Below, one piece after another: positions 16,787-21,922 of a stretch of 34,708 nucleotides of DNA; the first letter of the stretch is position 1; every line of letters starts with the position of its first letter. The DNA lies in the NCBI GenBank assembly GCA_030838785.1, contig JAUZEY010000109.1, positions 1-34,708 of the forward strand, in the 5' to 3' direction. The notes beneath the pieces are model-generated. The model had not been told where the DNA came from, searched no databases, and was given only the letters and a program-made list of their open reading frames with translations. The position numbers were made by a program, and so were the translations under genes. The DNA comes from Actinomycetota bacterium. Its GTDB lineage: Bacteria > Actinomycetota > Acidimicrobiia > IMCC26256 > BP-133.

Positions 16787-17842
16787 ATGGGTCGTCACCG
16801 TCGCATCCGGGCTGTCAGCGGGATGACCGCCGTCGCCCTCCTCACCGCGCTGCTGCTCCCGGCGTCGCCGGCGTCGGCCGAGAGCCCGATCCACCCGGAG
16901 AACCGCCCGAGCGGCCTGGCGGGGGAAACAAACGGGCAGGTGCGGCCCGAGGCGCTCGTCGGCGTGGAAAGCAATTGTCAGGCGGCGCGGGCGGCCGGCT
17001 CCAGCCTGGCTCTCCTGCTGGCCGCGGCCCGGGCCGACGGCGTGCCGCTACGCCCCGGCGACTGCTACCGGCCGGCCAACCAGCAGTCGGCAGCCAAGTC
17101 GAACGCCTGCGGCAAGGGCAACTGCGCCTGCGCCGCCGGGACGGGGACGTCGATGCACGGCTGGGGCGAAGCGGTCGACTTCCGCGACGCCGGTGGGAGC
17201 CTCACGTTCACGGCGTCCGGCTACCGGTGGCTGAAGGACAACGGTGCCCGCTTCGGGTGGAACCACGCCCGGTGGTCCGAACCGGGCGGGAGCGCCTGCC
17301 CCGAGGCCTGGCACTGGGAGTGGGTCGGCGACGGCGGCCGCATGCAGCTCGACACCATCCGGGCCGACGTCGTGGGGATCGTGGCCTGCCGCTCCGGCGG
17401 GTACTGGGGCCTCACCGGTCTCGGCGGCGTGGCGGCCCGGGGCGGAGCGCCGGATGCCGGGTCGACCGGCGCCCCCCTCGCCTGGCTGGTGAAGGGCGGG
17501 GCGGCGACGCCGTCGGGTCGGGGTTACTGGCTGGTGGCGTCGGACGGGGGAATCTTCTCGTTCGGGGATGCGGCGTTCTTCGGGTCGCGGGGCGGATCGT
17601 CGACCGGCGACCGGTTCGTGGCCATGTCCGCCAGCCCGACCGGGCGGGGCTACTGGCTGGCCTCCTCCGATGGCGCCGTGTTCCCCTTCGGCGAAGCCGC
17701 CCCGGCTGGGGCACTGACCGCGAAGCCCAACCTGCCCATCGTCGGCCTGGCGGCCACCCAGTCCGGCAAGGGTTACTGGTTGACCGCTGCGGACGGGACT
17801 GTGTTCTCCTTCGGGGACGCCGTCGTCGCCGGCTCCGCCTAG
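16787..17842 (+). CDS. Secreted M15-type (VanY-like) D-Ala-D-Ala carboxypeptidase domain with C-terminal GYW repeats
   Basis: Signal peptide; SMHGWGEAVDF and EAWHWEW metal/catalytic motifs; C-terminal repeats GRGYWLVASDGGIFSFGDAAFFGS / GRGYWLASSDGAVFPFGEA / GKGYWLTAADGTVFSFGDAVVAGS. Confidence 0.88.
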   Translation: MGRHRRIRAVSGMTAVALLTALLLPASPASAESPIHPENRPSGLAGETNGQVRPEALVGVESNCQAARAAGSSLALLLAAARADGVPLRPGDCYRPANQQSAAKSNACGKGNCACAAGTGTSMHGWGEAVDFRDAGGSLTFTASGYRWLKDNGARFGWNHARWSEPGGSACPEAWHWEWVGDGGRMQLDTIRADVVGIVACRSGGYWGLTGLGGVAARGGAPDAGSTGAPLAWLVKGGAATPSGRGYWLVASDGGIFSFGDAAFFGSRGGSSTGDRFVAMSASPTGRGYWLASSDGAVFPFGEAAPAGALTAKPNLPIVGLAATQSGKGYWLTAADGTVFSFGDAVVAGSA

Positions 17843-18478: not shown

Positions 18479-19171
18479 ATGAAGCTCAATTTCCGGAAGA
18501 AGGTTCTCTTGAGCCTGGGAGTGGTCGCCGGCATCGGCGCCCTCGCCGGTGCCGGAACCTTTGCCACGTTCACCGCCCAGACCTCCAACCCCAACAACAC
18601 GTTCGCCGACGGCACGCTGGTGCTGAGCAACACGGTCGGAACGGCCACGGCCTGCCTCTCGACCGGCGGTGGCAACACCGACACGAACGCCAACGGCCTC
18701 TGCGACACGGCCTTCAGCCTCAGCGTCAAGGCACCGGGCGATTCGAGCACCGCCGACATCACCCTGGAGAACATGGGCAGCCTGCCCGCCTCGGCCCTCA
18801 AGGCCTTCTCGGGATCGTGCACCGACGGCGACGCCAACGGGGAGACCTACCACGGCAGCGGGTCGGCCTGCGGCAAGGTACAGATCTACGTCCAGCAGTA
18901 CTCCGATGCCTTCAGCACCCCGTCGGCCTGCCTCTACGGGGGTGCGACCGGCGCCACCTGCAACTTCTCCGACGCCACCAAAACTCTGACGACCTTTGTC
19001 ACCGCCTATCCCAACGTCGGCAGCGGCTTGTCGGCCGGGGCCCTGACCGCCGCCGGCGGCGGGTCCCCGAAGGCGTGGGTCAGGGTCGGCGTGAAGCTTC
19101 CCGCCAACGCCGACAACTCCTACCAGGGCCGGTCGGCCTCGCTGGCTCTCAACTGGCACATCACCCAGTAA
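18479..19171 (+). CDS. TasA/CalY-like SipW-dependent surface protein 1
   Basis: MKLNFRKKVLLSLGVVAGIGALAGAGTFATFTAQTSNPNNTFADGTLVLSN: SipW-type signal (basic residues, hydrophobic core, TFATFTA) followed by a TasA-like beta-rich mature domain. Followed by a SipW-like peptidase. Confidence 0.82.
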   Translation: MKLNFRKKVLLSLGVVAGIGALAGAGTFATFTAQTSNPNNTFADGTLVLSNTVGTATACLSTGGGNTDTNANGLCDTAFSLSVKAPGDSSTADITLENMGSLPASALKAFSGSCTDGDANGETYHGSGSACGKVQIYVQQYSDAFSTPSACLYGGATGATCNFSDATKTLTTFVTAYPNVGSGLSAGALTAAGGGSPKAWVRVGVKLPANADNSYQGRSASLALNWHITQ

Positions 19172-19180
19172 GCGGATGTG

Positions 19181-19735
19181 ATGAGCACCGCGGTACTCGA
19201 CGTCAGGGCCGCCAGGCCGGCGCCAGCGCTCTCGCTGGCGCCGGCGGCGGTGCGCCTCGTCGTCAAGGCCTCGCTCGGGGTCGTCCTGCTGGCCCTCGTG
19301 ACCCTCGTCGTCGGGCCCCGGATGTATCCGTTCGAGAGCTTCTACGTCCGCAGCGGCAGCATGTCGCCCACCATCCCGGTGGGGGCCCTGATCATCGCCA
19401 CCCGGGCGCCGGCCGCCCAGCTGGGTGAGGGCGACGTGATCGTCTTCCAGCGCCCCGGCCGGCCGGGGACGATGGTCGTGCACCGGATCTACGCCGTCGT
19501 GCAGACGCCGACGGGCCGGGCCTTCATGACCAGGGGTGACGCCAACCCGGGCCCCGACGACTGGATGGTGGCGGCCACCGGCGACGGCTGGCGGGCCGAG
19601 TACTCGATCGCCCGGGCCGGCTTCACGGTCGGCTGGCTCCACGCCGCACTGAGCCGCCGGGGATGGCTCGGTGCGTTCGCCATCGTCGTCGCCGTCTGCG
19701 CCCTCATTTCGATCTGGCAGAGCGAGGAACCGTGA
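19181..19735 (+). CDS. sipW-like: SipW/ER-type signal peptidase I
   Basis: SGSMSPTIPVGALIIA catalytic Ser motif, VVHRIYAV (His in place of the bacterial catalytic Lys), TRGDANPGPDDW motif, N- and C-terminal TM segments. Confidence 0.9.
   Translation: MSTAVLDVRAARPAPALSLAPAAVRLVVKASLGVVLLALVTLVVGPRMYPFESFYVRSGSMSPTIPVGALIIATRAPAAQLGEGDVIVFQRPGRPGTMVVHRIYAVVQTPTGRAFMTRGDANPGPDDWMVAATGDGWRAEYSIARAGFTVGWLHAALSRRGWLGAFAIVVAVCALISIWQSEEP
19216..19245 (+). repeat. Perfect 13-bp inverted repeat (4-nt loop) inside the 5' end of the sipW-like gene
   Basis: GCCGGCGCCAGCG-CTCT-CGCTGGCGCCGGC, about 35 nt after the ATG at 19181. Confidence 0.85.
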
Positions 19736-20385
19736 CATCCCCGAAGGACAACCCGGCACCCCCGGCGAAGACGCTGCTCGGTGGCACCGGACGGAAGGTC
19801 CTGCTGTCGCTGGGGGCGCTCGGCGTGGCCGGCGCCCTGGCCGGCATGGGCACCTTCGCCACCTTCACCGCCACCACCAGCGCCAGCTCCACCCTGGCGT
19901 CGGGGACGGTGGTGATCGCGCTCGGGAACACCGGGGCGTCCACGAACCGGCTCACGGTGAACGCTTCCGGCCTCGTGCCCGGTGACACGGTGCAGCGGTC
20001 GTTCGACCTGTCCAACACCGGCAGCCAGGACCTGGCCTCGGTGGCGCTCACGACCACCGCCTCGCCCTCGTCCCTCCTCGACACGGACAGCACCAACGGC
20101 CTCCAGATGGTGGTCGACCGCTGCTCCGTGGCCTGGACCGAATCCGGTTCGTCGCCTGCCTTCAGCTACACCTGCGGCGGCTCCACGACGACGATCCTCA
20201 CCACCCGGGCGGTGATCCAGTCGGCGCTGACCATGTCGGGCCTGAGCGCCCTCACCGCCGCCGGCACCGACCACCTGCGGTTGACGCTGACCTTCCCGGG
20301 GACGGCCGGCGCCTCCCTCCAGGGCCTCAGCTCGACGCTCACCTACAGCTTCCTCGGCACGCAGCGGGCCGGTGCCGCCCACTAG
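19732..20385 (+). CDS. TasA/CalY-like SipW-dependent surface protein 2
   Basis: GTG overlaps the sipW stop (GTGA). GRKVLLSLGALGVAGALAGMGTFATFTATTSASSTLASGTVVIAL closely resembles the signal of the 18479 protein. Later GLVPGDTVQRSFDLSNTGSQDLASVAL is TasA/CalY-like. Confidence 0.82.
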   Translation: MTSPKDNPAPPAKTLLGGTGRKVLLSLGALGVAGALAGMGTFATFTATTSASSTLASGTVVIALGNTGASTNRLTVNASGLVPGDTVQRSFDLSNTGSQDLASVALTTTASPSSLLDTDSTNGLQMVVDRCSVAWTESGSSPAFSYTCGGSTTTILTTRAVIQSALTMSGLSALTAAGTDHLRLTLTFPGTAGASLQGLSSTLTYSFLGTQRAGAAH

Positions 20386-20392
20386 ATCAGTG

Positions 20393-21922
20393 ATGCGGAC
20401 CGTCGGACAGTGGGCCGGGCGGATCCTCCTGGCGGTGGCGGCCGCCGTGCTGCTGGCCGTCGGGATCGGTCCCCTCACCGGTGCCTACCGGATGGCCACC
20501 GTGTTGAGCGGCAGCATGGGGCGCGGCATGCCGGTCGGCTCCGTCGCCGTGCTGGTTCCCATCGACCCGGGGGCGGTGCAGGTGGGCGACGTCATCACCT
20601 ACCAGGCCCCGACTCCGGAGCATCAGGTGGTCACCCACCGGGTGGTGGAGATCACCGAACCCGGCCCCCACCCCGTCCTGCGGACCCGCGGCGACGCCAA
20701 CGGCACCCCCGATCCCTGGTCCGCCCGGCTGGACGGCGCCCCGGCCTGGCGGCGGGTGGCCGTCATCCCCTACGCCGGAACGATGATCCGGGCCCTGCGG
20801 TCGGCGCCGGTCCACCACGCCACCGTCCACCTCGTCCCTCTGGTCCTGCTGGCCGCCATGCTGGTGGCGATCTGGTCGCCCGGGTCGAAGCCGGGAAGGC
20901 GGCGACGGGTGTCGAGGCGCCAAGCGACGGCGGTGGCCGCCATCGTCGTCCTGACCGCCGCCGGTCCCGCCGCCGTGGCCGGCTTCACGAGCACCCCCGC
21001 CGCCGCCCACACCGTCGCCGCCGCCGCCGACTGGGTCGCGCCGTCCGTCAGCAGCACCGCCATCGCCAAGCCGACGGGCTACCTGGCCGGGGCCGTCAAG
21101 CAGGGCGGCACCTACTACGTCTACGCCAGCGTGGCCGACAGCGGGAACCCGCCCAGTGGCGTCTCCACGGTGAAGACCGACGAGAGCGCCATCACCTCGG
21201 GCCAGACGAGCGTCAGCCTCACCGCCGGGTCCTACTCGGTCAACGGGGTCGCCTACAACTACCGCAGCACCCTCCAGACGGCCAGCAGCCCGCTATCGGG
21301 CGGCAAGACGTACTCGATCACCTCCACCGACGCTCTGGCCTACAGCCGGCTCCAGACGGGCTACACGGTGACGATCGACAACGCCGGACCGACGGCGACC
21401 GACATCTCGACCGGCAACGCCGCCGGCGGCACGCACGGAATGGCCGAAGCCGGCGACACGATCACCTTCACCTTCAGCGAGCAGATCGACCCCCAATCGA
21501 TCCTCGCCGGCTGGACCGGGGCGTCCACCACCGTCGTGGTGGAGCTCCAGGACGGGGGGTGCACGCTGGTCCTCTGCAACAACGACACCTTCCAGATCTA
21601 CAACTCCGCCTACACCACCACGCTGCCGTTCGGGTCCGTGAGCCTCGCCACCGGCAGCTACTACGGCTGCTCCGGCATCGGTCTGCTGTGCGGCAAGACG
21701 CCGATGGCGTTCGGCGCCACGGGCACGGCCTCGACCATGGTGGAATCCGCCAACACCATCACGATCACGCTCGGGACCAGCAGCGGGGGCAACGGCATCA
21801 TCCACACCGTCGGGAGCAACACCGACATGGCCTGGACCTCGACCACCACGCCCTACGACGCAGCGGGCAACACCGCATCGGGGAACACCTACACCGAGGG
21901 CGACAACGACTACGAGTTCTAG
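20393..21922 (+). CDS. SipW-type signal peptidase fused to an extra TM/signal-like segment and a ~300-aa extracellular beta-rich domain
   Basis: Peptidase: VLSGSMGRGMPVGS, VVTHRVVEI, TRGDANGTPDPW. Then a TM (HLVPLVLLAAMLVAIW), basic linker GSKPGRRRRVSRRQ, second hydrophobic segment ATAVAAIVVLTAAGPAAVAGFTSTPAAA, then a Ser/Thr-rich domain including TVTIDNAGPTATDISTGNAAGG...EAGDTITFTFSEQIDPQSIL. Confidence 0.85.
   Translation: MRTVGQWAGRILLAVAAAVLLAVGIGPLTGAYRMATVLSGSMGRGMPVGSVAVLVPIDPGAVQVGDVITYQAPTPEHQVVTHRVVEITEPGPHPVLRTRGDANGTPDPWSARLDGAPAWRRVAVIPYAGTMIRALRSAPVHHATVHLVPLVLLAAMLVAIWSPGSKPGRRRRVSRRQATAVAAIVVLTAAGPAAVAGFTSTPAAAHTVAAAADWVAPSVSSTAIAKPTGYLAGAVKQGGTYYVYASVADSGNPPSGVSTVKTDESAITSGQTSVSLTAGSYSVNGVAYNYRSTLQTASSPLSGGKTYSITSTDALAYSRLQTGYTVTIDNAGPTATDISTGNAAGGTHGMAEAGDTITFTFSEQIDPQSILAGWTGASTTVVVELQDGGCTLVLCNNDTFQIYNSAYTTTLPFGSVSLATGSYYGCSGIGLLCGKTPMAFGATGTASTMVESANTITITLGTSSGGNGIIHTVGSNTDMAWTSTTTPYDAAGNTASGNTYTEGDNDYEF

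Follow-up and report, generated by a model that had tools for sequence, protein, structure and literature searches.

The window analysed here, a 34,708-nucleotide stretch of DNA from an Actinomycetota bacterium, carries on its forward strand a tight cluster of four genes in the order substrate 1, SipW1, substrate 2 and fusion. Substrate 1 (18479–19171) is a stand-alone SipW-type substrate of TasA/camelysin-like character, which lies just short of the cut-off of PF12389, the TasA/camelysin fibre subunit family (22.1 versus 22.5 bits), and matches a TasA model with an E-value of 5.6e-4. It is followed by SipW1 (19178–19735), an unfused paralogous signal peptidase of 185 amino acids (PF10502, 38.3 bits; TIGR02228, 70.1 bits), and by a second stand-alone SipW-type substrate (19732–20385), whose probable GTG start overlaps the SipW1 stop and which scores above the PF12389 cut-off (51.9 versus 22.5 bits). 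The SipW-type signals of both substrates end in TFATFTA. Neither promoters nor terminators were found in the cluster by scans that are uninformative in the GC-rich DNA of an actinobacterium. Upstream of it, positions 16787–17842 encode a VanY-type D-Ala-D-Ala carboxypeptidase (42 bits) whose C-terminal part is rich in repeats, and repeats of the same kind are found likewise upstream of the cluster in a sister species (G002).

The fusion gene, P0001, occupies positions 20393–21922 (+) as a single open frame of 509 amino acids plus stop; an alternative GTG start at 20372 would give a fusion of 516 amino acids. It joins a SipW-type signal peptidase, an internal SipW-type signal and a predicted secreted domain, hereafter the cargo. 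The peptidase S26 domain of the ER/SipW type spans residues 16–161 (20438–20875). Residues 16–157 score 77.7 bits with TIGR02228, the archaeal/ER-type signal peptidase family (NCBIfam cut-off 51.85), and this score together with the Ser/His/Asp set places the enzyme in the ER-type/archaeal-type signal peptidase I class (MEROPS S26B). A search of the PDB with a profile of the fusions matched human SEC11A and SEC11C (E 6.4e-17). The Bacillus SipW equivalog model NF046067, in contrast, gives only 61.8 bits over residues 29–161 versus a cut-off of 190. The original prediction of a SipW-type peptidase thus holds as regards an ER-type, SipW-like enzyme and fails as regards the Bacillus equivalog; from its sequence the fused enzyme would work like SipW yet lie outside SipW proper. 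It shares 29% identity with SipW1, so that two diverged SipW-type enzymes are encoded in one operon. A scan of genome contigs with P0001 matched no close relative.

The three catalytic residues lie in motifs that had been read from the sequence at the outset, namely Ser41 in SGSM (codon 20513–20515), His82 in THRVV (20636–20638), which replaces the Lys of P-type enzymes, and Asp101 in TRGDANG (20693–20695; GDAN). All three are invariant across the fusions of alignment A1, and among the 33 fusions described below Ser is kept in 32, His in all 33 and Asp in 32. The two exceptions are fused peptidases in which Ser is changed to Thr (L133, G708) or Asp to Ala (L083, G238).

Hydropathy peaks mark a first transmembrane segment at residues 11–27 (TM1, 20423–20473), a second at 144–160 (TM2, 20822–20872) and a third at 180–196. 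Between the latter two runs a basic loop, residues 161–178 (WSPGSKPGRRRRVSRRQA; 20873–20926), with seven Lys/Arg and a net charge of +7, which includes GRRRRVSRR. The second membrane segment, basic linker and third hydrophobic stretch of the original prediction are thereby recovered. We infer the topology, with this loop in the cytosol as the n-region of an internal signal, from hydropathy and charge only. The third segment (TM3) and the adjoining motif AVA/GF (P1 Ala196, P2' Phe198) extend over 20930–20986, and the predicted mature cargo comprises residues 197–509 (20981–21919). It is at most weakly Ig-like: Big_5 scores 17.2–18.1 bits against a Pfam gathering cut-off of 23.6, and the C-terminal Ig-like domain proposed earlier could not be sustained, as all Ig-like families fall below the Pfam cut-off (Big_5 17.2 versus 23.6). 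PF12389 has no match in P0001, a PDB profile search with the cargo as query returned no match, and an AlphaFold model of full-length P0001 from the single sequence was useless (mean pLDDT 38).

The nature of the third segment was assessed with a profile trained on 104 stand-alone SipW-type signals, all from frames without a peptidase domain. The profile reports residues 166–226 of P0001 with 17.7 bits (E 1.3e-5); substrates 1 and 2 score 60.9 and 48.8 bits, respectively, both being among its training seeds. Run on 99 frames containing an S26 peptidase, it gave at least 10 bits after the peptidase in 28 of them (27 fusions and L045), a value reached by none of the controls: 99 reversed frames scored 7.5 bits at most and 1,980 shuffles no more than 9.8. 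Three of the 33 fusions described below (L042, L047 and L116) remained under 7 bits and were recognised as such by eye. At L045:678-1709(+) (G028), a 344-residue SipW carries a SipW-type signal (16.6 bits) at its end, with only about a dozen residues past the predicted cut, and so is a fusion with almost no cargo. The curated signal model TIGR04088 did not report P0001 at E ≤ 1, and it also leaves the two neighbouring substrates below its cut-off (14.8 and 16.9 versus 19).

The layout of the P0001 signal is that of a SipW-type signal, with GRRRRVSRR as n-region, a core at 180–196, small residues at P3 and P1 (A194/A196) and an aromatic residue at P2' (F198). Of 31 internal signals, 29 have Ala at P1, all have A, S, T, V or G at P3 and 29 have F, Y or W at P2'; among the 104 stand-alone signals, 103 have F or W at P2'. 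Because the HMM alignment favours an aromatic P2' by construction, these counts are descriptive and no test. An aromatic P2' occurs in 0 of 143 verified E. coli LepB substrates, and in TasA, which is processed by SipW, Phe at P2' hinders ordinary signal peptidase (PMC10269814).

Comparison with related genomes shows how the gene is maintained and where its parts occur separately. In the sister species G001 the whole fusion lies in one frame, with 77% identity over residues 1–509, and dN/dS between G000 and G001 is 0.38 for the peptidase, 0.37 for the linker and third segment and 0.39 for the C-terminal domain. Every part of the fusion is therefore under purifying selection, and the intact G001 frame together with these values indicates that the uninterrupted 509-residue frame, correctly called in the original prediction, is not due to chance. 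A second sister species, G002, has its genes in the same order as the window but lacks the peptidase module. Here the cargo is encoded separately, by a gene for 325 amino acids that begins with GTG just past the end of substrate 2, and the N-terminal sequence of this protein, MRHVVRLLVAVALIAVAPAALAAFTSTT, aligns with the P0001 third segment. In G483 and G441, which lie outside the class to which the window belongs, a cargo of 42–45% identity is encoded on its own and bears a strong signal of the SipW type, and its gene overlaps the end of a SipW gene that carries no fusion. From these stand-alone cargos in G002, G483 and G441 we infer that the cargo is a secreted protein independently of the peptidase, with the third segment as its signal. 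Three independent lines, the signal profile, the separate gene in G002 and the stand-alone cargos of G483 and G441 next to an unfused SipW, thus support the earlier proposal of a polyprotein with an internal SipW-type signal and a C-terminal substrate. A second copy of the fused-type peptidase was not found in G002, which has the cargo without it; SipW1 would therefore have to serve there, which argues that cleavage in trans is possible.

Unfused loci keep the order substrate, SipW, cargo, often with an overlap of 1–23 bases between the cargo gene and the SipW stop. In G224 the two genes stand in one frame, split by TAG-ATG behind GGAGGAGG. At L038:8451-10968 (G010), a frameshift in the linker parts the peptidase from an NHL cargo, which reflects either misassembly or the recent breakage of a fusion. 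Together, G224 and G010 imply that a single base change can create or destroy a fusion. A frameshift between the halves, named beforehand as evidence against a real fusion, was thus seen in G010; none occurs in the closest fused relative, and elsewhere the gene boundaries are clean.

The fusion arrangement recurs with many cargos in many genera across Actinomycetota. Searches of 198, 395 and 397 genomes, together with inspection of fetched loci, yielded 33 SipW-type fusions, a lower bound given that the genomes are sampled and mostly fragmented and that frames under about 330 amino acids were partly inspected. All share the plan of peptidase, basic loop, third hydrophobic segment and cargo, and the third segment carries an AAFTxxT...NxFxA-like motif. 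The cargos are otherwise unrelated by Pfam and include Ig-like, RCC1, NHL, LamG, CBM96, WD40/PQQ, other beta-propeller and glycine-rich types. On a tree built from 94 peptidase domains, the state fused or unfused requires 13 changes, and well-supported branches force at least 4 of these; the tree is unrooted, so gains and losses are indistinguishable, and its support values come from a quick search that leaves many deep forks open. The fusion of the window and that of G001 are placed among unfused peptidases in a group of 17 rows (96% support). A single clade of all fusions, as one origin of the fusion state would give, was rejected (p-AU 2e-64). Gene neighbourhoods follow the peptidase clades, in that relatives of substrate 1 adjoin members of the SipW1 clade and relatives of substrate 2 mostly adjoin the clade that holds the fused peptidase, which suggests dedicated enzyme–substrate pairs.

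Other C-terminal extensions of S26 peptidases were encountered as well. At L101:5720-8764(-) (G222) and L104:4106-7207(+) (G313), a SipW-type peptidase and further hydrophobic segments are followed by GGDEF and EAL domains (108.7 and 212.3 bits in L101, 122 and 200.1 bits in L104, by Pfam), both genes sitting inside clusters with SipW-type substrates. Such a SipW–GGDEF–EAL fusion would couple matrix-protein maturation to c-di-GMP synthesis or breakdown in one protein. A recurrent extension without a SipW-type internal signal is of the DUF5305 type, found in L115:4415-6403(+) (69.8 bits) and, weakly, in L119:4891-6444(+), and probably present in L117 and L137 too.

On these sequence features, we consider it likely that P0001 is a two-part peptidase–cargo precursor, the cargo most likely being released by SipW-type cleavage after Ala196 (A196/G197). 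The first 160 or so residues would form a working SipW-type peptidase, with TM1, a catalytic domain carrying Ser41/His82/Asp101 on the outside and TM2 leading back to the cytosol. The basic cytosolic loop would then serve as the n-region of a second, internal signal sequence, whose core at residues 180–196 would recross the membrane and deliver the cargo of about 310 residues to the outside. The AVA/GF junction would be a SipW-type site, with small P3 and P1 residues and an aromatic P2', poorly cut by ordinary signal peptidase. The cut may be made by the fused enzyme in cis, by neighbouring copies of it or by SipW1. In such an arrangement the cargo would be made in a fixed ratio with the peptidase and exported beside the already folded enzyme. 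The cargo is probably an accessory part (tip, anchor or adhesin-like) of a TasA-like surface fibre or matrix, a role suggested only by its operon neighbours, the two TasA/camelysin-like proteins.

More tentatively, and with rather less confidence than we attach to the precursor itself, the fusions could be widespread, repeatedly formed self-maturing precursors, in which the peptidase would fold first on the outside and then, acting in cis, free its own cargo. This would keep enzyme and surface protein at one-to-one, the cargo end would act as an exchangeable cassette and the internal signal would be poorly cut by other peptidases. The loss of a catalytic residue in L133 and L083 indicates that self-cleavage is not universal, as their cargos would need another peptidase.

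The persistence of those two fusions with a degraded catalytic residue would also fit a different arrangement, allowed by the original prediction, in which the third segment anchors the protein permanently in the membrane and the C-terminal domain remains at the cell surface, joined to the peptidase, where it might serve, for instance, in docking or adhesion. Even an uncleaved protein would hold a stable surface topology, given its three hydrophobic segments and the basic second loop. We nevertheless regard permanent anchoring as unlikely, since the cleavage-site residues, needless for an anchor, are conserved over some 30 fusions with unrelated cargos, and elsewhere the same cargo is an ordinary secreted protein that has its signal at the N-terminus. 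Less probable still, and in our view decidedly so, is that the C-terminal part, instead of being a cargo, assists the enzyme as an accessory domain, in substrate recruitment or as a fibre chaperone, with any cleavage being incidental. The peptidase clade and the substrate-2 family do travel together as a matched pair, and a fused domain could aid such matching, but the cargo families switch entirely between fusions (RCC1, NHL, LamG, CBM96, WD40, Ig-like) and G002 retains the cargo gene without this peptidase. An artefact of assembly, or of a missed stop or frameshift joining neighbouring genes, is conceivable from the halves split within one frame in G224 and by frameshift in G010, but it is very improbable and was rejected on G001 and the other fusions, since separate assemblies of two species in the genus both hold the gene intact, dN/dS across the junction is 0.37 and some 30 other fusions occur in many genera.

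The predicted peptidase–cargo precursor shares features with the closest known systems. One is Bacillus subtilis SipW alongside TasA/TapA (tapA-sipW-tasA operon), likewise an ER-type peptidase dedicated to neighbouring, TasA/camelysin-like substrates in its operon, whose signals end in A/xF with an aromatic P2' (PMC10269814); there, however, SipW is a separate protein of about 190 amino acids, whereas here it is fused to one probable substrate. The stand-alone SipW-dependent-type proteins of TIGR04088 have the same n-region, hydrophobic core and AAFTxxTxNxxNxFxAG order, which our profile recovered, but the signal of P0001 is internal, 178 residues from the N-terminus and after two transmembrane segments. 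The eukaryotic catalytic subunit Sec11 (SEC11A/SEC11C) has a related catalytic domain with Ser-His-Asp (E 6.4e-17) and acts, in contrast, in a multi-subunit complex without a cargo fusion. Viral polyproteins contain internal signals cut by host signal peptidase, or autoprocessing proteases. As predicted for P0001, an internal signal carries the downstream protein across the membrane and a signal-peptidase-type enzyme can release it, whereas the bacterial precursor includes the signal peptidase itself and a single cargo. No published description of SipW–substrate fusions was found in a search of openly accessible papers. The enzyme class, its substrates and the signal type are already known, while the peptidase–cargo fusion, its spread and the diversity of its cargos seem to be undescribed.

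Signal peptidases act on other proteins, and their own genes usually stand apart. When such an enzyme is recurrently fused to a substrate that has an enzyme-specific internal signal, one can ask directly whether a signal peptidase is able to process its own polypeptide, and the enzyme is tied to defined substrates without guesswork. More than 30 proteins with RCC1, NHL, LamG, CBM96 or Ig-like surface ends are concerned, for which profile-based naming would tend toward a plain 'signal peptidase I'. The natural exchange of cargos points to a modular cassette for secretion and display, and the recurrent fusion also outlines a TasA-like surface-fibre system in Actinomycetota.
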